DNA from: Sneathia sanguinegens
Lineage (GTDB): Bacteria > Fusobacteriota > Fusobacteriia > Fusobacteriales > Leptotrichiaceae
Reading direction: 5' to 3'
Length of the DNA stretch: 64,000 nucleotides
Assembly (NCBI RefSeq): GCF_001517935.1
Contig: NZ_LOQF01000002.1
Span: forward strand, 1-64,000
Shown here: positions 4,292-52,157 of the stretch, piece after piece
Position numbering within the stretch: position 1 is the stretch's first letter
Layout of the letters: every line of letters begins with the position of its first letter
The notes under the pieces: model-generated
Databases searched by the model: none
What the model was told of the DNA's origin: nothing
The model's input: only the letters and a program-made list of their open reading frames with translations
Made by a program: the position numbers and the translations under genes

Positions 4292-5095
4292 ATGAAATTA
4301 TCAAAGAAAATTATTGCTATTTTAGCAACAAGTATCGCTTTTACAAGTTTTGCTGAAGTTAAAACTTATACATTAACTGCTAACCAATTAATGGCTAGAG
4401 AAAATACCATGAGTACTTATTGGTATCAAACATCTGTTGAAGCAAAAGCTTTATATCTTCAAGGTTATAAGCTTGCTACTAAAAATTTAACTAATATCTT
4501 AAAAAAACACCATAATAAACCTTATGCTATAGTTTTAGATATCGATGAAACAGTTTTAGATAATAGTCCATATCAAGTTCAAAATATCAAAGATGGAACT
4601 GGTTTCAATCCTAAAACATGGGACGAATGGGTTCAATTAGGTGTAGCAAAAGCTGTTCCTGGTGCTAAGGAATTTTTAAATTTTGCTAATAAGAATAAAG
4701 TTAAAATATATTACATTTCTGATAGAGATGACAATCAAATAGATGTTACTATTAAAAATATGAAAAAAGAAGGTTTACCTGTACAAGGTAGAGATCACTT
4801 ATTATTCAAAGGAATGGGTACAAAAGTTGAAAGAATGGATAAAGTTAAAAAACATTCTAATATAGTTATGTTATTTGGTGATAATATCTGTGATTTTGGA
4901 GATTTCTCTAAAACTTCTATGGCAGACAGACAAAAGAAATTAGACGAATTAAAGGCTGAATTTGGTGACAGATTCATTATCTTCCCTAATCCAATGTATG
5001 GTAGTTTTGAAAGAACAATTTATAAAGAAAAAAATGCTAAAACTCCTGAAGAAAAAATGAAAGTTAAACATAATTTACTTAAAGGATATAAATAA
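4292..5095 (+). CDS. secreted class C (e(P4)-like) acid phosphatase / 5'-nucleotidase
   Basis: HAD-superfamily phosphomonoesterase that probably strips phosphate from nucleotides outside the inner membrane, e.g. during NAD or nucleotide scavenging. Residues 1-21 are a signal peptide. The nucleophile motif LDIDETVLDN (Asp83, Asp85) is class C-specific; YISDRDDNQ (about 151) and LFGDNICDF (about 199) supply the distal aspartates. H. influenzae e(P4) is a lipoprotein, but no lipobox Cys is seen here, so this form may be soluble in the periplasm. A strong AGGAGGT ribosome site precedes the ATG. Confidence 0.88.
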   Translation: MKLSKKIIAILATSIAFTSFAEVKTYTLTANQLMARENTMSTYWYQTSVEAKALYLQGYKLATKNLTNILKKHHNKPYAIVLDIDETVLDNSPYQVQNIKDGTGFNPKTWDEWVQLGVAKAVPGAKEFLNFANKNKVKIYYISDRDDNQIDVTIKNMKKEGLPVQGRDHLLFKGMGTKVERMDKVKKHSNIVMLFGDNICDFGDFSKTSMADRQKKLDELKAEFGDRFIIFPNPMYGSFERTIYKEKNAKTPEEKMKVKHNLLKGYK

Positions 5096-5100
5096 GAATA

Positions 5101-5126
5101 AAAAAAAGCCTACGGGCTTTTTTTTT
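5101..5126. terminator. bidirectional terminator between convergent genes
   Basis: AAAAAAGCC and GGCTTTTTT form a 9-bp stem with a 4-base loop and A/T tracts on both sides. It serves the acid phosphatase gene and the convergent outer-membrane gene. Confidence 0.85.
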
Positions 5127-6060
5127 ACCATTCATAATTATAGCCTAAAGTTGCTGAGTATGCTTGCGATAATTTACCTAAGGATAGTGACAATTTATGC
5201 TTATCTTTAAATAACATTTCAACTAATATATCTCCAGAATGAACCATATAATTATCTTCTTTCTTATTTATTATTTCTCTTGAAAAAATTTCATATTTAT
5301 TTGAATTTTTTAATCTTTTATCAAATGCGTAACCTATAGAAAGTTTATATTTATTTTTAGTTTCAAATAATATACCTGCTCTCAAAAAGGCCCCAATATT
5401 ATAATTAAAACTTGGTACTAATTTTACAAGAGAATTATTTTGATCCCTAACTTCTGATTTCAAATTATATGTATAACTTGCCCTAAGTCCCGGTTCCACA
5501 AAATATTTTTTACCAAAATGTAATCTAAAATCTAAGCCTCCAATTATCCCCATATAATTTTGTTTAAAATTTTTATTATAGTCTATAATGCTATAGTTAA
5601 ATTTATGCTCAGTATTTATTCTCACTTTAAAATCTGGTATATATGCACTAGCATTAAGTCCAAAATTAATTCCATTAATTTTATTAGAATTTATTAATGA
5701 ATTTGTATAACCTACTGTAGCACCAAACATTGTTTTATTTCCTTCATAATCTAATGCTTTTGAAAAATTAATATTAGTATTTATATTGTATTTATTCTTA
5801 TCTCCAACAAAATTTGTAAATGTTCCTATATTATATTTTGAATTTTTTTCATCAAGACTATCTATAAAATTTTGACCAGAACTTTTTAAATTAGTAAATT
5901 TATAATTTGATAATTCATAATTAAAAGCCTTAATTTGCATATTTCTAAATTCATCAATTGTTTCCATAACTATCTTTTTTTCTTCCGATAAATTTTCATA
6001 ATTTACTGTACTAGCAAACCCTAAAGTTGTAATTAAACTTAAAAATAATAATTTTTTCAT
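5125..6060 (-). CDS. outer-membrane beta-barrel protein
   Basis: A 16-residue signal peptide (MKKLLFLSLITTLGFAS) is followed by a helical stretch of about 60 residues, then about 230 residues of alternating polar/hydrophobic strands (e.g. GLNASAYIPDFKVRIN, LRASYTYNLK) that end in LGYNYEW. A terminal aromatic residue is the usual insertion signal of outer-membrane barrels. It resembles the isolated barrel or autotransporter-beta-domain proteins frequent in Fusobacteriota, but there is no long passenger. It lies 7 bases downstream of the effector operon on the same strand and may be co-transcribed with it; a role in export or immunity is only a guess. Confidence 0.72.
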   Translation of the reverse strand: MKKLLFLSLITTLGFASTVNYENLSEEKKIVMETIDEFRNMQIKAFNYELSNYKFTNLKSSGQNFIDSLDEKNSKYNIGTFTNFVGDKNKYNINTNINFSKALDYEGNKTMFGATVGYTNSLINSNKINGINFGLNASAYIPDFKVRINTEHKFNYSIIDYNKNFKQNYMGIIGGLDFRLHFGKKYFVEPGLRASYTYNLKSEVRDQNNSLVKLVPSFNYNIGAFLRAGILFETKNKYKLSIGYAFDKRLKNSNKYEIFSREIINKKEDNYMVHSGDILVEMLFKDKHKLSLSLGKLSQAYSATLGYNYEW

Positions 6061-6067
6061 TTTTCTC

Positions 6068-9000
6068 CTATCTAGGCCAATATATCCCTTGTACCTTTTT
6101 ATCTTTTTTATAATAACTTTTTTTTATAACATTTGATTGATTTCCACCAAGACAATAATATCCATTATCATCTTCTGATACTATGAAACTACAGTGTCCT
6201 TTACCATTTCCATAATTAAGCACTAAAATAGCCCCATATTTTGCTTTATTTATTTTTTTGAAATATTTAGCTCCCTCTTTAGAATAAAAACATTGTGAAC
6301 TAGGTGATTTAAAGCCTAAATTTAAAATGTAGTTTACAAATGAAGCACACCACGGTGTATTTATGTCTGCATCTATACCCCCACCTTCTTTATGATAAAT
6401 TTTAACCATTTTTTGTAAAGTATATTGATTATAACTTTTCATATATTCAAATAAGGCCCTTTCCATCCATGTGCACTTTCTATTTTCGTTAGTGCTAATT
6501 TTATATGGTGAATAAAGTTGTGGTAATTGTTTCTTTGCTTTTTCAATAAATTCAGAAAATACATCTTGTTTGCATAACTTTTTTCCTATATTTACCCATT
6601 TATCATTTTCATATTTTGAATTTATTTTTCCCAAGAAATATCCCATTATTATTTTAGCTAAAGGCTTTATATTTATTAATCTTTCATTTTTAGAATCAAC
6701 AACTGGATATACCTCATAACTCATTAACTTCTTTTCATCATACCTTGGTTTTAATTCAGATTTAAATAATATCTCACATTGTTTCGCTAATGTCCTTGCA
6801 AAACATTCAACTGAATAAACATATCTTGCATATTTATTAAAATATCTTCTTTCTAATCTGGAATATATATTTTCTATTGCTTTATAGTCATCTAATTTAT
6901 ATATTATTTCCGTTTTTATTTCAGGAATTTGTTTTAAGCTACTTTTTATTTGATTTGGATTTGTAATATTAATAGTTCCACCTAATGTACAAATACACTT
7001 TGAATTTTCTAGCAATATCGGTTTGTTTTCTATTTGTATATCCGTTTTTTTTAACCAATATGACAAATTTGGAGAACACACTTTATTTATTGTGCAAGTT
7101 TTAAAAGGTATTATCCTATTATCATATATAGTTGCACATGCTTTCCCATCTATATATTTTTTTGCACTCAATACATTCAATGTTGATATATCTGGGCTCA
7201 TTGTACAACTTACTTTTGCTCCAGAACAAACTATTTTATTTTTTTCATTATTTTCAACTTCAAAATATATTTTTTCATAAAAATTATATATGTTATAGCT
7301 TGATCTTATCTTCATATTATATGCCAGTGCTTGTTTTGTTTTAAAACTCTTTTTTATTTTACTTGCACTACCATCTTTTAAATAAGTTTTACAATCCTTA
7401 TTTTCCATTAAGTTAGATATTTTTTGTAAAGATTTATCTTTATATTCTTTATCACTTTTTAGCAAAGAAATAATAACATTTGTAATATTAAAGTCTTTAA
7501 TGCTAGCTAAAAAACTATAGTCACTAAAATCTAATCCTTGTCTATATTCATCTAAATATATTAAATAATTTCTAAGAATATTCTGTTTATCATTTGGAAA
7601 ATTGTCAAAATATTTTGTTTTTACTCTCGTAATACTTTTTATTAATGAAATTAATAAATTATCTAAAAATCTTCTTGCTCTTTTAAAATTTCTCTTAGAT
7701 TGTTTGTCTAAGCTATAACTTTTTTTTACTAAGCACTCATCTTTAAATAATTTTAAAAATCTATAATGTTTTGTTTTTGGATATTCCCTTAAAGGTAAGG
7801 TTGGGCAATCAACTTTAATATCATCAACATCTGCCAAACCTAAGCTTGTTAAATAATTTGTATTTGAATTTTCTAATTTAATCTTAGTAAAATCTTCTAT
7901 TTTATTTATAATATATTCTTTAACCTTAGATTTAAATATATTTTTTATAATATTCCCTATTTGCTGTATTCTACTTTCATTTTCATACTTACAGCTCAAA
8001 AAGCACAAAGAATCTTCCAAAGTTTGCAATGGATCCATTGAAGAACTACAAATATCATATAAAAAGTCTATTACACTAACTTGTTTTTTTAAAATATCTC
8101 TATATTTATCAAAATTTTCTTGATTAATTATATCTTTATTTTTTTTATCAACTGCTTTTAAGATCTCATTAAAACTTTTTCTTTCTTTGCTATCAACCTT
8201 AGAATTTGTAACATCTTCAAAATAATTTGTGTACTTTTTGTCTCCATATTCTTTTTCAAATTTTTCTTTTAACTTTTCTCTTACAGAATCACTATCTTCA
8301 ACCAATCTAGCCTTTGTTTTGTTATTATCCTTTATTATTTCTTTTATTTTCTCAATAAGTTCTTCATTAGAATTTTTATTTTCTATAAGTTCTTCTTTTT
8401 TACTTTGAGTTAAATTTTTAAGTTTTTCTAAAATAGGTAATATTTCTTTTATCTGTTCTTTTAAACCTTTACTATTCTGTCCAATAAATTCTTCACCAAC
8501 ATCAATTTCAGACTTATCTTTTTCATTTACTTTTGGAATAACTTTTTTTTCTTTAAGTACCCCTGTAATATAGCTAATATCATATTCACTTTTATTATCA
8601 AGATATTCTGTTATGGGAATATTATCTCTACAGTGTATTTCAACCTTATTTAATAATTTTTTTAATTTACTTATTCCAAACACATGACAAGCAATATATA
8701 TACCAGCTGGACTTAATTCAACACTTAATTTTTTATCTTTTAATTCTATTTGCTTATTATCTTGTATAAAGGGTATTCCACTTATATCTAATATTTCACC
8801 AGAATATTCAAGTAATATCTCTTTTAAATCTTTAATTCTTATAAACTTATCAAAAAATATCACAAGTTCATCCTGTTTTTTATAACCTTCCTCACAATGT
8901 AATAAAAAATTTAAATCTATATTAGGTTCTATTAAATATATTTCAGTTTGACTCATTAAATATCTTCCTATTTTTTCGCTTGTAATTTCTCCCTTTGTTT

Positions 9001-9106
9001 CTCTACCAACTTCATAATCAGATTTAAGATATTTCATTGCTAAATCATCATAAAATCTTTGAATTTCTTCAGGTATTTGTTCTTTTTGAAAAAATTTTTC
9101 TTTCAT
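6068..9106 (-). CDS. DUF4280 (PAAR-like) spike-tip protein with C-terminal CHAP/NlpC-type hydrolase
   Basis: A 1012-residue modular protein. Residues 1-200 are an uncharacterised domain; 210-330 are Lys/Glu-rich and probably coiled coil; about 624-720 match the DUF4280 PAAR-like pattern (VCSGAKVSCTMSP, ATIYDNRIIPF, CICTLGGTINI), a family that caps VgrG spikes; about 880-1012 form a TIGR02594/CHAP-like cysteine hydrolase with PWCASF (Cys920), GHCSF (His971) and LGGNQSN. The likely role is to be loaded on the VgrG tip and to cut peptidoglycan in a target cell. It is the last gene of a five-gene operon, 7 bases after the spike gene. No obvious immunity gene follows it. The domain calls come from remembered motif patterns, not a search. 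Confidence 0.7.
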   Translation of the reverse strand: MKEKFFQKEQIPEEIQRFYDDLAMKYLKSDYEVGRETKGEITSEKIGRYLMSQTEIYLIEPNIDLNFLLHCEEGYKKQDELVIFFDKFIRIKDLKEILLEYSGEILDISGIPFIQDNKQIELKDKKLSVELSPAGIYIACHVFGISKLKKLLNKVEIHCRDNIPITEYLDNKSEYDISYITGVLKEKKVIPKVNEKDKSEIDVGEEFIGQNSKGLKEQIKEILPILEKLKNLTQSKKEELIENKNSNEELIEKIKEIIKDNNKTKARLVEDSDSVREKLKEKFEKEYGDKKYTNYFEDVTNSKVDSKERKSFNEILKAVDKKNKDIINQENFDKYRDILKKQVSVIDFLYDICSSSMDPLQTLEDSLCFLSCKYENESRIQQIGNIIKNIFKSKVKEYIINKIEDFTKIKLENSNTNYLTSLGLADVDDIKVDCPTLPLREYPKTKHYRFLKLFKDECLVKKSYSLDKQSKRNFKRARRFLDNLLISLIKSITRVKTKYFDNFPNDKQNILRNYLIYLDEYRQGLDFSDYSFLASIKDFNITNVIISLLKSDKEYKDKSLQKISNLMENKDCKTYLKDGSASKIKKSFKTKQALAYNMKIRSSYNIYNFYEKIYFEVENNEKNKIVCSGAKVSCTMSPDISTLNVLSAKKYIDGKACATIYDNRIIPFKTCTINKVCSPNLSYWLKKTDIQIENKPILLENSKCICTLGGTINITNPNQIKSSLKQIPEIKTEIIYKLDDYKAIENIYSRLERRYFNKYARYVYSVECFARTLAKQCEILFKSELKPRYDEKKLMSYEVYPVVDSKNERLINIKPLAKIIMGYFLGKINSKYENDKWVNIGKKLCKQDVFSEFIEKAKKQLPQLYSPYKISTNENRKCTWMERALFEYMKSYNQYTLQKMVKIYHKEGGGIDADINTPWCASFVNYILNLGFKSPSSQCFYSKEGAKYFKKINKAKYGAILVLNYGNGKGHCSFIVSEDDNGYYCLGGNQSNVIKKSYYKKDKKVQGIYWPR

Positions 9107-9113
9107 ATATTCC

Positions 9114-10355
9114 TCAATTATTAAATATTTTATTAGCTTTTAATTTAATATTAGATTTACTATTTATGTCTATATCTGCTTTTTTGGAAACAAGAATAAT
9201 ATTATTTCCATATATACTCATTTCATCCTTTGCTTCCATAGATATATAGCCCCTACTTAGATTAGCTATTTCTTCTTTTGAAATAAATACTATCTTATTA
9301 GTATCTACTGTAAATTTATCTTTTTCTAATTCTATACTTGCCTCTTTACTTATGTATACTCTTTTTTCATCAGTACAAAATCTATTACTTCCTTTATTAT
9401 TAATACAAAATGCTACCTTTGCATCATTTTCATTATCACTTGGAAAGTACACATCCACTATATCTCCATTTTCTGGTGTTGGAAAAAAGCCCGTACTTGT
9501 CTTTGAATAAGGTGTAGAAAAACTCAAACTTTTTTTATTTTTACTCTTATCCCATATACTTCTTGAAAAATCCACTTTCATACTAGCTACTTCAAGATTT
9601 TCAATAACCTTAATTACCGTTGCTTCCAAAAAAGTTCCCTTAACATTATTTTTTATTTCATATAAATAATTGCCTTTTGGGCATAACAATATTTCTGTTA
9701 AATAAATATTTTTATCTAAATTTGTAATTAGCTCGCAAATATATTTATCTTGGTATTTATCTCCGACTAAATATACTTCATTTTTTATTTTGAAATAACT
9801 ATCCTTATTCTTGATACCACTTTCAACTATATTTTTTAAATCAATTTCAGATACATTTTGTAGACCTATCATTAAAATTCCAGAATAACTTGTATATATT
9901 ACTTCATTTATATCATTTAATATCCTTGCCATAAATTCAAAATCTGTTTGTGCATATTGTAAATACAATCTATTAATTGATCTTTTTAAACTATTTGAAA
10001 TTGAATATTTAAATTTATATTCTTTTAATAATTCTAAGCAAATATCATAATATGTTATTGTTTCATCTTGGAATATTTTATAATTTTTTTTTATATCCAT
10101 TTTCTTACTATATGAATAAGCTTTTATAAGAGCTTTTTTACCATCTATACCAAATTTTGATACACATTTATCATATATTTCTCCAGAAAAATAGTTTATT
10201 TTATCTTCTATTTCAATTATATTTCCACTTAATTGTTGAATATCTAAAATTTCAAGTTCTATTTCCAATTCTGTGTGCTTATTATATGCTGATTTTAAGC
10301 TTAATCTTTTTAAGGTATATTCTTTTATTTCAGTATTATTAATTTTTATTATCAT
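9114..10355 (-). CDS. VgrG-like spike protein
   Basis: 413 residues with VgrG/phage late-control-D (gp27-gp5) architecture. The N-terminal about 200 residues are gp27-like (LQYAQTDFEFMARILND is the typical hub motif). A gp5 OB-like segment near 280-320 contains TGFFPTPENGDIVDVYFPS, and the C-terminal 100 residues are short beta repeats (VFISKEE, YISMEAKDEMSIYGNN, IDINSKSNIKLKANK) like a spike needle. It would form the trimeric tip of a contractile injection device that carries the adjacent DUF4280 protein. Its start overlaps the upstream small gene by 17 bases. Confidence 0.75.
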   Translation of the reverse strand: MIIKINNTEIKEYTLKRLSLKSAYNKHTELEIELEILDIQQLSGNIIEIEDKINYFSGEIYDKCVSKFGIDGKKALIKAYSYSKKMDIKKNYKIFQDETITYYDICLELLKEYKFKYSISNSLKRSINRLYLQYAQTDFEFMARILNDINEVIYTSYSGILMIGLQNVSEIDLKNIVESGIKNKDSYFKIKNEVYLVGDKYQDKYICELITNLDKNIYLTEILLCPKGNYLYEIKNNVKGTFLEATVIKVIENLEVASMKVDFSRSIWDKSKNKKSLSFSTPYSKTSTGFFPTPENGDIVDVYFPSDNENDAKVAFCINNKGSNRFCTDEKRVYISKEASIELEKDKFTVDTNKIVFISKEEIANLSRGYISMEAKDEMSIYGNNIILVSKKADIDINSKSNIKLKANKIFNN

Positions 10356-39764: not shown

Positions 39765-40271
39765 ATGGATTATATACGAGCGATTCTGGACGGGATTGCA
39801 ATAGCCGCAATCTTTAACGGTGCAGTGGCAGCTTTGGTGCTTATTAACCCGAGATACTTTTTTGATTCTTATCCAAAAGCAATTCAGAAAGCTGCACCAG
39901 AACAGATGACAAAAAAAGAAAAAAATATAAATTTAATTCTAACAATTATAATTTGCGGGATTTGTTTCATATATTCAACGGCAAGTCTTATACATACAGG
40001 CATTTTGGGTTTTTGGAATCTTTTTTGGATGGGGTATATTCAGTGGAGCATATTAAACTTAGGAGATTTCTTTTTGTTGGATTGTCTGTTGTTCCAAGGA
40101 AAATATAAGGATAAAATCGTCATTCAGGGAACAGAAGGGCATCCAGATTATGAATTCAGTAACTGGCTGAAGCATTTAGCAATCATGGAACATTTTGTAG
40201 TTACTCCGTTTTTAATTATACCATTTGTGGCAGTGATTCAGGCGTTGCTGGTTGGTTTATTAGGAAGATAA
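39765..40271 (+). CDS. membrane protein of unknown function (copy 1, intact)
   Basis: 168 residues with four membrane segments (about 8-28, 56-76, 85-105, 143-163) and a charged loop PRYFFDSYPKAIQKAAPEQM between the first two. I recognise no named family. An AAAGGAGATAG ribosome site is well placed. The second copy of this gene is inactivated by a nonsense codon, so this is the only possible functional copy. It is on the opposite strand to most of the island and faces the DUF1016 gene. Confidence 0.62.
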   Translation: MDYIRAILDGIAIAAIFNGAVAALVLINPRYFFDSYPKAIQKAAPEQMTKKEKNINLILTIIICGICFIYSTASLIHTGILGFWNLFWMGYIQWSILNLGDFFLLDCLLFQGKYKDKIVIQGTEGHPDYEFSNWLKHLAIMEHFVVTPFLIIPFVAVIQALLVGLLGR

Positions 40272-40365: not shown

Positions 40366-41397
40366 TTATTTTCCCTTGTATTTTTCTATAACTTTTTCTA
40401 CTTGTTCTTCAAGCTCTTCTCTGTTTGGGATATACAAAGTATATTTTGATGCGAATATTTTATTTGATAAGTTTCCTAATGCGTATTCTGCTTGTACTCC
40501 GTCCTTATCTGTACACAAGATTATCCCTATCGGTTCATTATCCATTTCATCATTAACTTCTGCCTTATAATAATTAAGATACATATTGATTTGCCCAACT
40601 GCTTCTGGCATTAGCTTGCTTGTTTTTAGTTCGATTAAGACATAAGACCTCAAAATCTTATTATAAAATACCATGTCCACATAATAATGTGTGTTTCCTA
40701 GGGTTACTCTTTGTTGGCTACCTACATACATAAAACCCTTGCCAAGTTCTAGCAAGAATTTTTCAATATGCTCTATAAGTGCTTTTTCTAAATCACTTTC
40801 CATCATTGGTTTTTCTTCTGGCAATCCTAAAAATTCAAATACATAAGGGTCTTTTACAAGATCAGCCGCCTTTTTTATTTCATTACCTTTTAAGGCTAGG
40901 TCTAGAACTTTTTCTTTATTTTTCTCTCCAGCTTATAAGTGTAATCTTTTAAAAAGTGATGTTTTAATTTGTCTTTTAAGTTCTCTTACTGACCAGTTTG
41001 CGTTGATACTCTCTTTCTCATAGAAGCTTCGCTTTTTCTCATCGCTAATTGATAAAAGCTCACAATAATGAGACCAAGTCAATTTAACAGACACTGTCTG
41101 TTGAATTTCATATTCTTGAAAAAATCTCCTCATAAATTGCAAATTTGATACTGAAAATCCTCGCCCAAACTCTTTAGTTAATCTCTTAGATAAATCTTTA
41201 AGTAATTCTCTACCATAATCTGCTCTTTCTGAATGTCCTTGTTCATCTTCTACGATGATACGTCCAACCTCCCAGTAAGTTTGCACTAAAATATTATTGA
41301 CTTCTCTTGCAACTTCATTTCTTGCCTTATCCATCAATGTTTTTATGCTATTAAAAATATCGTCATGGACTCTATCTATGTTATTTTTGTTATTCAT
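40366..41397 (-). pseudogene. DUF1016 (YhcG-type PD-(D/E)XK) nuclease, copy 1, split by one stop
   Basis: The N-terminal half (MNNKNNIDRVHDD to LFKRLHL) is DUF1016_N, with YWEVGRIIVEDEQG and the GRGFSVSNLQFMRRF block. The C-terminal half has the nuclease core: VTLGNTHYYVDMVFYNKILRSYVLIELKTSK (Asp...ExK) and GIILCTDKDGVQAEYALG. The two halves are in one frame separated by a single TAA just after KRLHL; the codons after it continue the family (AGEKNKEKVLDLALKGNEIKKAADLVKDPYVFEFLG). The same TAA is in the second copy. Either two polypeptides are made or the gene is dead. Confidence 0.75.
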
Positions 41398-43176: not shown

Positions 43177-44655
43177 TTAAAATTGTATGATTTTATTGGC
43201 TATATCTTCTACAAATCGCTTATCGTGTTCCACAAATATAAGTGTAGGCTTTGCTTCTTTTATAATTTCCTCAATCTGTATTCTTGATATTACATCTATA
43301 TAATTCAGTGGTTCGTCCCAAACAAATATATGAGCTGGCTTTGAGAAACTTACAGCAATTAAAACTTTCTTTTTTTGTCCATCGCTATAGTTCTTCATAT
43401 CCATTTCAAATAATTCTCTTGAAAAATCTAATTTTCTTAGAATTGTTTTACACAATGTTTCATCAACATCTTGCTTGTGAATATATTCGTTTAGGCTACC
43501 TGTTAAATTAGATGTGTCTTGAGGAATATACGAGATTTTTAAATTACCTGCTAATTTTATCTCACCTGTATACTCGTGATTTATACCTAATAAAATTTTA
43601 ATCAAGGTTGATTTTCCGCTACCATTACCCCCATATATAGCCACTATGTCGCCTTGCTTTATCTCAAAACTTACATTACTTAGGATCTGTCTTTCTCCAT
43701 AGTATGCTGATAACTCGCTAACCGATATTAGGGGATTTTTGTGATGATTTAGCGGATGCAGTAATAGGCTTTCCTTTATTTCGATATCTTTTAGTAAACT
43801 CTGTTTTTCTTCTATTGCCTTGTTTTGTCTATTCTCCAAATTCTTAGATTTTTTCATCATCTTGGCTGATTGATGACCTATATGTCCTTTGTCTGGTTTT
43901 ACACCTGATACTTTCACACCATTTTTAGTATTTTCAATTTTATCAGACCAAATTTGACTTTGTCTTGCAGCCTCTTTTAATCGTTTAATATCTTTTCTTA
44001 ATCTCTCATTTTGACTAATTTCAAATTGGTCTTTCATCACTTTGTTTTCATACCATGATGTAAAATTTCCCGATTGGACATCAATAGAATTCCTGTTAAT
44101 AGAAATAACATGATTAATACAACCATCTAAAAAATCTCTATCATGAGATATAAGCAAAAATCCTTTTTTACTTTTCAGATATTCACTTACAATTTTTCTT
44201 CCGTCCATATCTAAATGGTTTGTTGGTTCATCAATAAGTAAAAAACCATCTTCTCTTGTAAACAAAATAGCTAAAAGGATTTTTGTTTGTTCCCCTTTAG
44301 AAAGAGTTTTAAATTCCCTATAAACAAGGTTCTCATCTACATTTAGCAAATTAAGTTCTCTAAATAACTTCCATTCTTCATCATCTGATATTAGTTCTTT
44401 ATATAACTCAATTCCTAATTTTGAAGTATCAATTATATTTGGTGGAAATTTAATAAATTCAACATCCTTGCTTATTTTACCTTGATAAGTTTCTTGATTT
44501 AAAAGTAACTTAAATAGAGTTGATTTACCAATTCCATTTCTTCCTATCAAACCCGTTTTCCAGTTTGTATCAAAGGAAAACGATACATTTTTAAATATCG
44601 GTTTTACATATCCATAATATGAGAAAGTGAGGTTTTCAATTTTAATTGCCGACAT
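43177..44655 (-). CDS. ABC-F ribosomal protection protein (Lsa/Vga-like)
   Basis: 492 residues, two ABC domains without membrane segments: Walker A GRNGIGKST (about 38-46) and GGNGSGKST (about 343); signatures LSKGEQTK and YSDGQKKK; Walker B FLLIDEPTNHLD and IFVWDEPLNYID; the interdomain linker (about 200-300) is the arm that enters the ribosome. Length and the FDTNWKTGLIGRNG start resemble the Lsa group, which protects ribosomes from lincosamides, pleuromutilins and streptogramin A. The drug spectrum here is inferred. TATAAT lies about 35 bases upstream. The gene sits between two copies of a direct repeat. Confidence 0.85.
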   Translation of the reverse strand: MSAIKIENLTFSYYGYVKPIFKNVSFSFDTNWKTGLIGRNGIGKSTLFKLLLNQETYQGKISKDVEFIKFPPNIIDTSKLGIELYKELISDDEEWKLFRELNLLNVDENLVYREFKTLSKGEQTKILLAILFTREDGFLLIDEPTNHLDMDGRKIVSEYLKSKKGFLLISHDRDFLDGCINHVISINRNSIDVQSGNFTSWYENKVMKDQFEISQNERLRKDIKRLKEAARQSQIWSDKIENTKNGVKVSGVKPDKGHIGHQSAKMMKKSKNLENRQNKAIEEKQSLLKDIEIKESLLLHPLNHHKNPLISVSELSAYYGERQILSNVSFEIKQGDIVAIYGGNGSGKSTLIKILLGINHEYTGEIKLAGNLKISYIPQDTSNLTGSLNEYIHKQDVDETLCKTILRKLDFSRELFEMDMKNYSDGQKKKVLIAVSFSKPAHIFVWDEPLNYIDVISRIQIEEIIKEAKPTLIFVEHDKRFVEDIANKIIQF

Positions 44656-45119: not shown

Positions 45120-45626
45120 ATGGATTATATACGAGCGATTCTGGACGAAATTGCAATAGCCACAATCTTTAATGGTGCAGTGGCAGCTTTGGTGCTTATT
45201 AACCCGAGATACTTTTTTGATTCTTATCCAAAAGCAATTCAGAAAGCTGCGCCAGAACAAATGACAAAAAAAAAGAAAAACATAAATTTAATTCTAACAA
45301 TTATAATTTGCGGGATTTGTTTCATATATTTAACGGCAAGTCTTATACATACAGGCATTTTGGGTTTTTGGAATCTTTTTTGGATGGGGTATATTCAGTG
45401 GAGCATATTAAACTTAGGAGATTTCTTTTTGTTGGATTATCTGTTGTTCCAAGGAAAATATAAGGATAAAATCGTCATTCAGGGGACAGAAGGGCATCCA
45501 GATTATGAATTCAGTAACTAGCTGAAGCATTTAGCAATCATGGAACATTTTGTAGTTACTCCGTTTTTAATTATACCATTTGTGGCAGTGATTCAGGCGT
45601 TGCTGGTCGGTTTATTAGGAAGATAA
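45120..45626 (+). pseudogene. membrane protein, copy 2, with nonsense codon
   Basis: Same length and about 97% identical to the 168-residue protein at 39765, but the Trp codon in SNWLKHLA has become TAG (TGG to TAG), which cuts the product after 133 residues, before the last membrane segment. Confidence 0.8.
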
Positions 45627-45720: not shown

Positions 45721-46476
45721 TTATTTTCCCTTATATTTTTCTATAACTTTTTCTACTTGTTCTTCAAGCTCTTCTCTGTTTGGGATATACAAAGTATATT
45801 TTGATGCGAATATTTTATTTGATAAGTTTCCTAATGCGTATTCTGCTTGTACTCCGTACTTATCTGTGCATAAGATTATCCCTATCGGTTCATTATCCAT
45901 TTCATCATTAACTTCTGCCTTATAATAATTAAGATACATATTGATTTGCCCAACTGCTTCTAGCAATCCTAAAAATTCAGATACATAAGGGTCTTTTTCA
46001 AGATCAGCCGCCTTTTTTATTTCATTACCCTTTAAGGCTAGGTCTAGAACTTTTTCTTTATTTTTCTCTCCAGCTTATAAGTGTAATCTTTTAAAAAGTG
46101 ATGTTTTAATTTGTCTTTTAAGTTCTCTTACTGACCAGTTTGCGTTGATACTCTCTTTCTCATAAAAGCTCACAATAATAATACCAGGTCAATTTAACAG
46201 ACACTGTCTGTTGAATTTCATATTCTTTAAAAAATCTCCTCATAAATTGCAAATTTGATACTGAAAATTCTCACCCAAACTCTTTAATTAATCTCTTAGA
46301 TAAATCTTTAAGCAATTCTCTACCATACTCTGCTCTTTCTGAATGTCCTTGTTCATCTTCTACGATGATACGTTCAACCTCCCAGTAAGTTTGCACTAAA
46401 ATATTATTGACTTCTCTTGCAACTTCAATTCTTGCCTTATCCATCAATGTTTTTATGCTATTAAAAACATCGTCAT
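45721..46476 (-). pseudogene. DUF1016 nuclease, copy 2, deleted
   Basis: It retains the C-terminal GQINMYLNYYKAEVNDEMD and YTLYIPNREELEE regions, but the 71 codons with the catalytic Asp and ExK residues are missing, and the N-terminal half lacks its first codons and about 35 internal bases. The ancestral TAA after KRLHL is also present. Clearly non-functional. Confidence 0.8.
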
Positions 46477-48828: not shown

Positions 48829-49146
48829 CTATTCAATCATTTTGAAGTGTCTCAAAGCATCCATGATGGCTTCTTCTTTTTCAGGTGTACACTGTGGAAT
48901 AATTTGTTTCTCCTTTTTTTTGACTTGTTGTAATGTTCTCGTAATTCTATTCCACATTTCCTTTTTTATTTGTGCAATATATAATGTCGGAACTTTTAAT
49001 TCAAATTTATTCCAAACATATTCTTTGATTTGAGCATATGTTGCCTTGCTTTCAGCACTGGTCAAATCAAGCTCATTCAGCTCAGTTTCAACGTCTATAT
49101 GATTATCGACATCGAGTTTGGACAAAAGTGCTAACGTCCCGACGTG
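48829..49146 (-). pseudogene. rlmD C-terminal extension remnant (Clostridia type)
   Basis: It begins in frame HVGTLALLSKLDVDNHIDVETELNEL and ends PQCTPEKEEAIMDALRHFKMIE, the appended C-terminal domain of many Clostridial RlmD proteins. Between them YAQIKEYVWNKFELKVPTLYIAQIK is intact, then two compensating frameshifts occur (KEMWNRITRTLQQ stands where CGIELREHYNK would be read in the other frame). The methyltransferase body is absent, as expected for a displaced 3' end. Confidence 0.72.
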
Positions 49147-49425
49147 TGATTTTTAGGTTAATTCTAAATTTATCGTTACTTTTGCGAAAATGCGAATTTT
49201 ACTTATCTTACATCTTTTCTATACACTCGGTCTTTGCAAATCTCAATTAGGCTATTTTATAAAGCTATACCCTCGCTTTAACATTTTCTAAAAATAAGAT
49301 TCTATTGTATTTTCTCGTTTATCTCTCATACCTCGGATTTTATTTTGAAGAATATCAATATTCTATATTAATTATATCCATTTCATAGTTTCCCATCCAT
49401 TTTAAAAATTTTAACCCGCTTTTCT
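49147..49425. other. gene-free stretch
   Basis: AT-rich, no coding sequence and no clear promoter or repeat. It separates the rlmD remnant from the nuclease pair. Confidence 0.4.
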
Positions 49426-50136
49426 CTAATCCTGTCGTACGTATAAATCTATATCCCATCGACTTAATTCCGTAATTTCTAAAGTAAAATCTATCAAATA
49501 CACACTAATCTTATCATACTCATTAATCTTTTTTATTTCTTTTAAATGTTCCTGTGAAACTCCAACAACAATAATATTATATTTATGATTGAATTTTTTA
49601 TACTTATAATCTTCAGCCAATTTTTTACTTGAAAATAATAAAATCTTATTTGATAATACACTGTTTTTTTCTATAGATGTTTTACCATCTGTATTCATTA
49701 ACATCCAAAAAGGATCTCCTATTGTATTGAAATCAGGTTTTAAATACTCATTATATTCAGACATAGCAAAAGTATCAAAATCATCATATTTTATCAATTT
49801 AATTCCATTATACTCTGATACCTTACAAGCACCATTTTGAAATTCACTTTCTGCAGAAATAAATACACCATTAATTCCACCAATATGTTTCAGTTTGTAA
49901 TCGAAATTTCTTAATTCACTAACATTTATTGGGTTTCTCCAATTTTTACATTCTATACCAACTTGATAAAATATACCAAAATGCTCAAATGAATAAAGAA
50001 CGTCTATTTCATGAGTCGCACCATCATCACCCACCATTTTGACTTTCGTTCGAATTTCTGAATTTATTCTCTCTTTCTTAAAAAGTAGTACACAAATATT
50101 TTCAACTGCTTTTTCAAAATCATCACCTTTTCCCAT
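49426..50136 (-). CDS. Mrr-like restriction endonuclease with a shared C-terminal domain
   Basis: 236 residues. The N-terminal half is a PD-(D/E)XK nuclease of the Mrr_cat type: GDDFEKAVENIC, THEIDVLYSF (metal Asp) and YQVGIECKNWRNPI (Glu-x-Lys) at about 40-75. The C-terminal 95 residues (TIGDPFWMLM, FSSKKLAEDY, VVGVSQEHL) form a separate domain that recurs in the upstream gene. It lacks the helicase or methylase partners of classic restriction enzymes. It starts 4 bases after its partner's stop, so the pair is coupled. Phage or foreign-DNA defence is a reasonable but unproven role. Confidence 0.7.
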   Translation of the reverse strand: MGKGDDFEKAVENICVLLFKKERINSEIRTKVKMVGDDGATHEIDVLYSFEHFGIFYQVGIECKNWRNPINVSELRNFDYKLKHIGGINGVFISAESEFQNGACKVSEYNGIKLIKYDDFDTFAMSEYNEYLKPDFNTIGDPFWMLMNTDGKTSIEKNSVLSNKILLFSSKKLAEDYKYKKFNHKYNIIVVGVSQEHLKEIKKINEYDKISVYLIDFTLEITELSRWDIDLYVRQD

Positions 50137-50140
50137 ATAC

Positions 50141-50944
50141 TCACCTCACATATAATTCTCTAATAACGTTATAATCTACACTATGCATTTTTACATTACA
50201 GTCTATTATGGAAGAGATTTGTTTACTTGGCCGAATAAGACCTAATTTATATGGAAAAAGCCCACTCTCTGCAAGAGAAATCAAAAATACTAAATGACGT
50301 TGTGAAATACCAAATACAGCGTAATCCTTTTGTTGTTTACAGTATGCATCGGCAAGTTTTTTTGATGTGAAAAGTGGTAAAGAATTCCCTCCAACAAAAT
50401 AATTTCCCGTATTTTTTTTTGTTCGTTCATCAATTTGCATTAAAGTCCAAAAAGGATCACCAATAACATTTTCATCAGGTAAAAATTTACTGATAGCTTT
50501 TAAAGCATTTATTCTTGTTTCTTTCATAACATCAAAAAATATGGTTTGAATTTGTTTATCATTAGCAATATTCAATGCTTCTTCATCTATTTTAACGTTA
50601 TAATACAAAACACCTTTAGGAAAGTAACCTAAATCTTTTAAGAGGTTATCGAACTGCCATACATCTTCAGCTTTTACAATTTTGTTATCTATTATTTTTA
50701 TAACCGTTTTTTCTAAATTATTCATCTGGACAAATTCAATGTATATATCTATTTTATGTTCAATGCTTTTCCCTTTAACTCTAATATTTTTAAAAAGTTT
50801 AGGATTGATTAAATTTTCTCTATTTATCCTATAATCGTATAGAGAGAATACTAAATCAATCAACTCCATCCCCTTATTTTTATTGTTTTCTATGCTATCT
50901 TTCAATTGATTCTTTTTACGAAAAATATTTTTGAAAAAATTCAT
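50141..50944 (-). CDS. probable pseudonuclease partner of the Mrr-like protein
   Basis: 267 residues from the chosen ATG (AAGGAGG 12 bases upstream; an earlier frame extension lacks a ribosome site). The middle part follows the nuclease pattern of its neighbour (SIEHKIDIYIEF, then DVWQFDNLLKDLGYFPKGVLYY), but the catalytic Glu-x-Lys is replaced by KII, so it is probably inactive. The C-terminal domain (VIGDPFWTLM, FTSKKLADAY, FGISQRHL) is shared with the nuclease. The two proteins likely interact; the role may be recognition or control. Confidence 0.6.
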   Translation of the reverse strand: MNFFKNIFRKKNQLKDSIENNKNKGMELIDLVFSLYDYRINRENLINPKLFKNIRVKGKSIEHKIDIYIEFVQMNNLEKTVIKIIDNKIVKAEDVWQFDNLLKDLGYFPKGVLYYNVKIDEEALNIANDKQIQTIFFDVMKETRINALKAISKFLPDENVIGDPFWTLMQIDERTKKNTGNYFVGGNSLPLFTSKKLADAYCKQQKDYAVFGISQRHLVFLISLAESGLFPYKLGLIRPSKQISSIIDCNVKMHSVDYNVIRELYVR

Positions 50945-51040
50945 TATTATAACTAACCTCCTTGAATATAAACTGGAAAATTTTAGAGGATATCTGTTAA
51001 CGCATCGTTTTTTCTCTGACAGATATCGCATAGTCAATTA

Positions 51041-51093
51041 TTAAACTATTCTCATCATTTCTATCCTCTGAATCAAGACTACACCTTCACATG
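51041..51093 (-). repeat. rlmD 3'-end fragment
   Basis: Minus-strand CATGTG, then GGTGTAGTCTTGATTCAGAGG, reads HV-GVVLIQRIEMMRIV-stop after a one-base deletion. Its LIQR ending resembles the host's ALIQRVKS more than the LMSR fragments do, so it may be the original host 3' end displaced by the first insertion. Confidence 0.62.
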
Positions 51094-51196
51094 AGATTTT
51101 TAGACTATTTGAAAAATTACAGATTTATGCAAAATCCATTGATTTTTCATGTCTTATAACATTTCAATTGTTTTAAGCCTATTATTTTTAATTAGA

Positions 51197-51463
51197 CTAT
51201 TTATCATCTGGCTTTAAATGCTTCCTTAATTTTTCAACTTTCTCTGTACATTTGGTGTAAAGTTCATAACCTTCATTGAAGTTCACTCTTGACCTAAATG
51301 TGCTAGCAATGAATTTGCATGGTGAGGTAATCCTTTCAACTACACCGCACCGTTCGCACTCAGCATACACATTCCCATCCTTAATCGGAATAAACATTCC
51401 ATGGTCTTTCTCATTTCCCATGACGCTAACATCTCCGAAATCATCAAATTTTACATAGAGCAT
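51197..51463 (-). CDS. small protein with Cys pairs, unknown
   Basis: 88 residues. YAECERCGVVERITSPCKF contains a CxxC and a third Cys, with a fourth in YTKCTEK, suggesting metal binding. The ATG is well supported by AAGGAGG 9 bases upstream. No family recognised. It is in the segment nearest rlmD, with the DUF4097-like gene. Confidence 0.55.
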   Translation of the reverse strand: MLYVKFDDFGDVSVMGNEKDHGMFIPIKDGNVYAECERCGVVERITSPCKFIASTFRSRVNFNEGYELYTKCTEKVEKLRKHLKPDDK

Positions 51464-51554
51464 ATACGGCTTCCTCCTTTATTGGTATGTCTATATACGC
51501 TCTAATTCCAACTTATATCAAGTTTTATTGCTTCTTTTTTGATCTATATGTCTG

Positions 51555-52157
51555 CTACTTTGCAATAGCTTTCCCATTAAGGCAGCGCACCATGTAATGC
51601 GCAAATCCATCGTTTTTACAGTTTACCTTCTTCTTATCTGAAACCTCGGTGACACCATTCTCACAATCTACTTCAAGGCTTGCATCCTTGGTGATTGTTC
51701 CTTCTAAAATACTCATGCCATTTAATGTATCAAGCGTACAAACATGAGTTACTTCTACGTTTGTTGCTGAAGCCGACCCATTACAACATTTAAGAAAGAC
51801 ATCATCCGCTTTCAAATTAACAACTTCTACCTTGCCATTGCCCACTTCTACATAAAGCTTACCAATCTCAATATCTGTGATGAGCACTTGATTAGAATCA
51901 GATTCAACCTCACAAACTTCCACATCACGTGGCAAACTCACAACAATTTCAGGCATACCCTGAATAAACCACCTCAGCCAATTCGAAGCTGAGACTTTTT
52001 TAGTTTGAATAAGCCTTATAACATTTTGCGCTTCCTCAACCCTCAATATATCTTGTTCACAGTTAACAAAGCTCACACCAAAGGTATCAGCACGTTTCAC
52101 CGTTAAACGAACATCTTTCGTCTCTGCGATAAACTTCTTCCCTTTTAATTTAGTCAT
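51555..52157 (-). CDS. DUF4097-like beta-repeat protein
   Basis: 200 residues without a signal peptide. The second half is a series of short beta-turns (VLITDIEIGKLYVEVGNGKVEVVNLKADDVFLKCCNGSASATNVEV) as in DUF4097/LiaG-type proteins, whose function is mostly unknown. A GGGAGAAAT ribosome site lies just upstream, 3 bases after the small gene before it. It is on the youngest island segment, adjacent to rlmD. Confidence 0.62.
   Translation of the reverse strand: MTKLKGKKFIAETKDVRLTVKRADTFGVSFVNCEQDILRVEEAQNVIRLIQTKKVSASNWLRWFIQGMPEIVVSLPRDVEVCEVESDSNQVLITDIEIGKLYVEVGNGKVEVVNLKADDVFLKCCNGSASATNVEVTHVCTLDTLNGMSILEGTITKDASLEVDCENGVTEVSDKKKVNCKNDGFAHYMVRCLNGKAIAK

Follow-up and report, generated by a model that had tools for sequence, protein, structure and literature searches.

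XPF-ERCC1, MUS81-EME1 and RecB-RecC are pairs of an active and an inactive nuclease, the first two of which go back to a duplication, after which one sister lost its active site and the two became obligate partners. E. coli Mrr and other type IV restriction nucleases carry the Mrr_cat catalytic fold, Shedu (SduA) is a standalone PD-(D/E)XK defence nuclease, and the NACHT-associated NA-iREase1 domains (Pfam) provide a precedent for conserved, dead restriction-endonuclease folds in bacterial conflict systems. Here we analyzed a 64,000-nucleotide stretch of Sneathia sanguinegens DNA (hereafter the window), in which two adjacent genes on the minus strand, A and B, belong, judging from their sequences, to the known class of PD-(D/E)XK defence-type nucleases. 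The pair is real, conserved and uncatalogued in the libraries searched, and we estimate a probability of about 0.6 that its products form a nuclease/pseudonuclease complex in which a single subunit is catalytic, and which is probably an uncatalogued defence module of two genes.

Gene A (49426-50136, minus strand; 236 aa) matches Pfam Mrr_cat (PF04471; E 5.4e-9, score 36.6 bits, gathering cut-off 21) and carries the residues D45...E62-C63-K64 and Q100. Like E. coli Mrr, it has the Mrr_cat fold and catalytic residues, but it differs in lacking the winged-helix part (Mrr_N, by Pfam) and in being paired with a pseudonuclease; the nuclease domain opens the protein directly, and Mrr_cat is the sole Pfam domain above cut-off. 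Gene B (50141-50944, minus strand; 267 aa) falls into no family of Pfam, NCBIfam or PADLOC and is homologous to A over its full length by profile alignment (hhalign probability 99.8, E 1e-27). It retains the aspartate (D66), reads KII where A has E-x-K, and carries a motif of its own, E70-F71-x-Q73-M-N75-N76-x-E78. A PDB sequence search gave no match; the fold model of A is unusable (pLDDT 43, built from 5 close sequences), and that of B, of low confidence (pLDDT 58), has as its best PDB match 1y88, a restriction-endonuclease fold (E 8e-4), with MspJI, AspBHI, Can2 and RPB5 among its other top matches.

The loss of E-x-K is no quirk of the window copy, since it extends to all B proteins aligned. 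In one alignment of 11 A, 11 B and 8 single-gene proteins, K64 is a lysine in 11/11 A, 0/11 B and 8/8 single-gene proteins, and Q100 follows the same pattern (11/11, 0/11 and 8/8); E62 is a glutamate in 11/11 A and 8/8 single-gene proteins and in 1/11 B, while D45 is retained in 11/11, 10/11 and 8/8, respectively. What is constant among the 11 B proteins instead of the active site is E70, F71, Q73, N76 and E78. The alignment thus bears out the first-pass annotation, which had read one gene as Mrr-like with an intact Asp...Glu-x-Lys site and the other as the same fold without Glu-x-Lys, and it identifies B, by sequence, as a Mrr_cat homologue that is not the catalytic member.

The single-gene relatives share the two-domain layout of A, with D..ECK intact and about 26-31% identity, and differ from it in being encoded by one gene, presumably as homo-oligomers, where the window pair is split into active and inactive specialists. 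Annotated as 'restriction endonuclease' (Pantoea WP_126689326.1 and WP_172607963.1; prophage-contig loci L065, L066, L067 and L069), they lie in plasmids and prophage-like contigs; E. coli genomes gave no DNA match to a Pantoea form. One such relative (L059) sits beside an AriA/OLD-like gene and another (L008) beside an ABC-three-component system. At L060 (4458-7667), a 1069-aa protein without a PADLOC match lies beside a single-gene member and is possibly a defence gene. The likeness of the pair to XPF-ERCC1 and MUS81-EME1 is an analogy of logic only, as A and B are of another nuclease family, have another C-terminal domain and lack a helicase. The NA-iREase1 domains, unlike B, are fused to NTPases, and their profile matches one single-gene relative weakly (0.019) and B not at all.

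No catalogued system accounts for the two genes together, in keeping with the initial view that they had no known partners: Pfam, NCBIfam and PADLOC hold none that the pair matches, and with PADLOC 2.0.0 no one system was matched by both genes and no B tested was matched. For A, too, no catalogued defence family gave a strong match; its PADLOC hit, SduA (14.9 bits, 0.0018), falls on the C-terminal region, comes without a DUF4263 nuclease and is absent in the other family members tested, and membership of SduA was rejected. Such a pair is not described in the literature searched, the coverage of which was incomplete.

Both proteins end in a common domain of about 100 residues (BLASTP, 42% over 79 residues, E 1e-12), as had been noted at first for some 95 residues; rather than vanishing on closer alignment, the similarity grew stronger with profiles. 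In A the domain runs from about K133 (49429-49740, minus strand) and reads PD..TIGDPFWMLM...LFSSKKLAED...VVGVSQEHL...DLYVR, and in B it runs from about L155 (50144-50482, minus strand) and reads PDENVIGDPFWTLM...LFTSKKLADA...VFGISQRHL...ELYVR. Its predicted order is strand-strand-helix-strand-helix-strand, and it has no Pfam name. An identity with SseB was rejected (probability only 0.1 in an hhalign comparison with a streptococcal SseB protein), as was one with Tic22 (weak hints of 0.11, and 0.029 by fold, with none from a PDB profile search). In Bacilli the domain also stands alone in proteins of about 150 aa (L083:1378-1839, L088:1444-1902 and similar) and terminates a 594-aa protein (L081:1438-3222), with a further member at L084:1393-2391; these lone and fused proteins occur in larger Bacilli genomes with no sign of defence in their settings. 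Its occurrence both alone and fused indicates a general module that is not special to the pair, presumably one for binding or assembly. The stand-alone proteins lie near an endonuclease III-like gene.

The genes are arranged with B first, followed by 4 bases and then A, and the coupling proposed at the outset is evident in the sequence: the Shine-Dalgarno of A, GAGGTGA, overlaps the last codons and the stop of B, 4 bases before the ATG of A (GTGAGGTGA(gtat)ATG, 50137-50150, minus strand). Close copies elsewhere are laid out as in the window (GTGAGGTGA...ATG), the last codons of B doubling as the ribosome-binding site of A, and in L052, L053, L057 and L058 the ATG of A lies within the end of B. 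Despite this variation, the order B-A holds in all 12 pairs inspected, with either the start or the ribosome-binding site of A located at the end of B or immediately ahead of it. Such a layout promotes production of the two proteins in balanced amounts, as expected of the subunits of a complex, which A and B probably form. An 88-aa open reading frame upstream of B (51197-51463, minus strand) is not a core part, as it is conserved only in the nearest copies, in L004 and partly in L003. A promoter scan at the locus gave matches no commoner than in shuffled DNA, and no terminator or Rfam match was found there.

We surveyed genomes with profiles of the family and read the gene neighbourhoods, and found the pair kept together elsewhere with defence genes recurring beside it. 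The B-A pair is present in 12 further genomes, from Lactobacillales and two Clostridia. A bacterial genome scan yielded four close copies, in Candidatus Merdenecus (L003), Peptostreptococcaceae pGA-8 (L004), Streptococcus pseudopneumoniae (L005) and Streptococcus sp. 121 (L006), with B directly upstream of A in 4/4, and a search with the A profile added more Lactobacillales pairs (L052-L058 and L061) at 41-55% identity in A and 32-43% in B. Every B match in the genomes searched with profiles adjoined an A. Among 98 Fusobacteriota the pair occurs only in the window's own genome (0/97 others); phage records gave no match, and a scan of viral contigs with the B profile found none.

In a maximum-likelihood tree, A forms one clade and B another (support 100/100 each; root not fixed), with the intact-site single-gene forms outside both. 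The distance matrices of A and B co-vary (Mantel r 0.93, p 1e-4), and among closer pairs dN/dS is 0.12-0.35 for A and 0.15-0.53 for B, indicating purifying selection on both, somewhat looser on B. Since plasmids and prophages carry single-gene relatives whose site is intact, the most likely origin of the pair is a single old duplication and one site loss, followed by joint descent, much as for XPF-ERCC1. At some loci at least one of the two genes may be dispensable or in decay, given the decayed copies in which B is frameshifted and A intact (L006:7205-7995) or A is interrupted and B intact (L061:7124-7811).

Matches to defence families by PADLOC models lie within 5 kb of the pair in at least 8/12 outside loci, an enrichment judged by inspection, with a base rate computed for HerA only. 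SIR2-HerA adjoins the pair in L055 and L057, and HerA remnants do so in L061; with HerA-type genes in only 17/247 Lactobacillales (7%), these three adjacencies are unlikely to be chance. In L056 the pair has Gabija on one side and a C5 methyltransferase on the other, a type I restriction-modification system lies beside it in L058 and PDC-M46 in L057; a Septu/PDC-M01 pair (L006) and a HEC-06-like gene (L005) lie near it, and an LmuA-like gene is 4.8 kb off in L003. No defence gene or recombinase is found among the neighbours as read in L053 and L054. The varying order and partners point to a self-contained module that moves in the company of defence genes, and a role in defence is probable on this evidence. 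Defence islands accumulate cargo of every sort. The L056 locus (4734-9186) may hold a local four-gene unit, B-A being followed on the same strand by the C5 methyltransferase and then by a hypothetical protein of 525 aa, and the Gabija pair lying on the other side.

The same neighbourhoods bear on whether the pair is instead an add-on of SIR2-HerA or restriction-modification systems rather than a stand-alone unit. Same-strand gaps of 81 bp (L055), 299 bp (L057) and about 147 bp (L061) separate it from SIR2-HerA or, in L061, from HerA remnants, and in L056 it lies directly upstream of the C5 methyltransferase. We nevertheless consider this reading improbable, because the pair comes first relative to SIR2-HerA in L057 and last in L055 and L061, and 10/13 loci, including the window, have no such partner; for the same reasons SIR2 and HerA, neighbours in only 3/13 loci, were rejected as core components. 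A somewhat better case, still an unlikely one, can be made for an accessory nuclease of the mobile element that serves transfer, excision or the exclusion of rivals and not anti-phage defence. Genes that by their sequence encode serine recombinases are found next to the pair in L004 and L052 and close to it in L006, the tail of a recombinase gene closes the transferred block in the window, and the single-gene relatives occupy prophage-like contigs and plasmids; however, the recombinase varies in order, strand and type, the genes read next to the pair in L053-L056 include no recombinase, and defence genes are the commoner neighbours.

The remaining alternative concerns B itself, which would be merely decaying, or an antitoxin-like inhibitor of A, and not a targeting subunit. 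That B comes first, is coupled to A and evolves faster is compatible with this, and a nuclease-inhibiting sister is plausible; plain decay is contradicted, however, by the invariant motif EF-Q-NN-E and by dN/dS below 1 over deep divergence, and the intact A beside a frameshifted B in L006 conflicts with an antitoxin role if A alone is toxic. We regard this alternative as rather doubtful.

Under the preferred reading of a complex with one catalytic subunit, A would be a metal-dependent PD-(D/E)XK (Mrr-type) nuclease that alone contributes catalysis to a heterodimer or heterotetramer, and B, a duplicated sister that has kept the fold and lost the active site, would be a structural or a DNA-binding and regulatory partner, joined to A at least partly via the shared C-terminal domain. 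Such a complex would have half as many catalytic centres as a homodimer, and would therefore nick its DNA substrate, or cleave both strands only when several complexes assemble. By the logic of XPF-ERCC1, the most likely division of labour places the active site in A and binding or control in B, which may supply binding, geometry or control that sets target choice or holds A off until triggered. The pair would then act as a compact anti-phage or anti-mobile-DNA module of two genes carried on mobile elements. A more specific proposal, which we advance tentatively as falling somewhat short of even odds, is that this obligate active/inactive Mrr pair is an undescribed anti-phage nuclease, a bacterial counterpart of XPF-ERCC1, in which B, with its conserved EF-Q-NN-E site, recognises the invader or gates A, while the shared domain serves as a novel module for assembly or sensing. 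If confirmed, the pair would be a defence enzyme of two genes whose dedicated non-catalytic partner was produced by duplication and the loss of one active site, and with the intact-site single-gene relatives in plasmids and prophages the step from a one-gene to a two-gene nuclease can be tested directly. The pair also draws attention to an uncatalogued domain of about 100 residues that is present in and outside these enzymes.

The window copy is a recent import, given the patchy spread of the pair and a 2.4-kb block (49142-51559) that has 88.5% DNA identity (blastn), across phyla, to the Peptostreptococcaceae locus L004 and marks the extent of the transferred segment. The initial placement of the genes on a mobile island is consistent with shifted G+C, the L004 match and nearby tRNA genes; no integrase was seen among the open reading frames of the island. 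One block of the island is duplicated, with a nearly identical hypothetical membrane protein encoded twice (39765-40271 and 45120-45521) and DUF1016/YhcG-like nuclease pieces, split or remnant, likewise present twice (40366-41397 and 46271-46447). The same G+C-shifted island also carries an ABC-F type ATPase gene (43177-44655), possibly a resistance gene.
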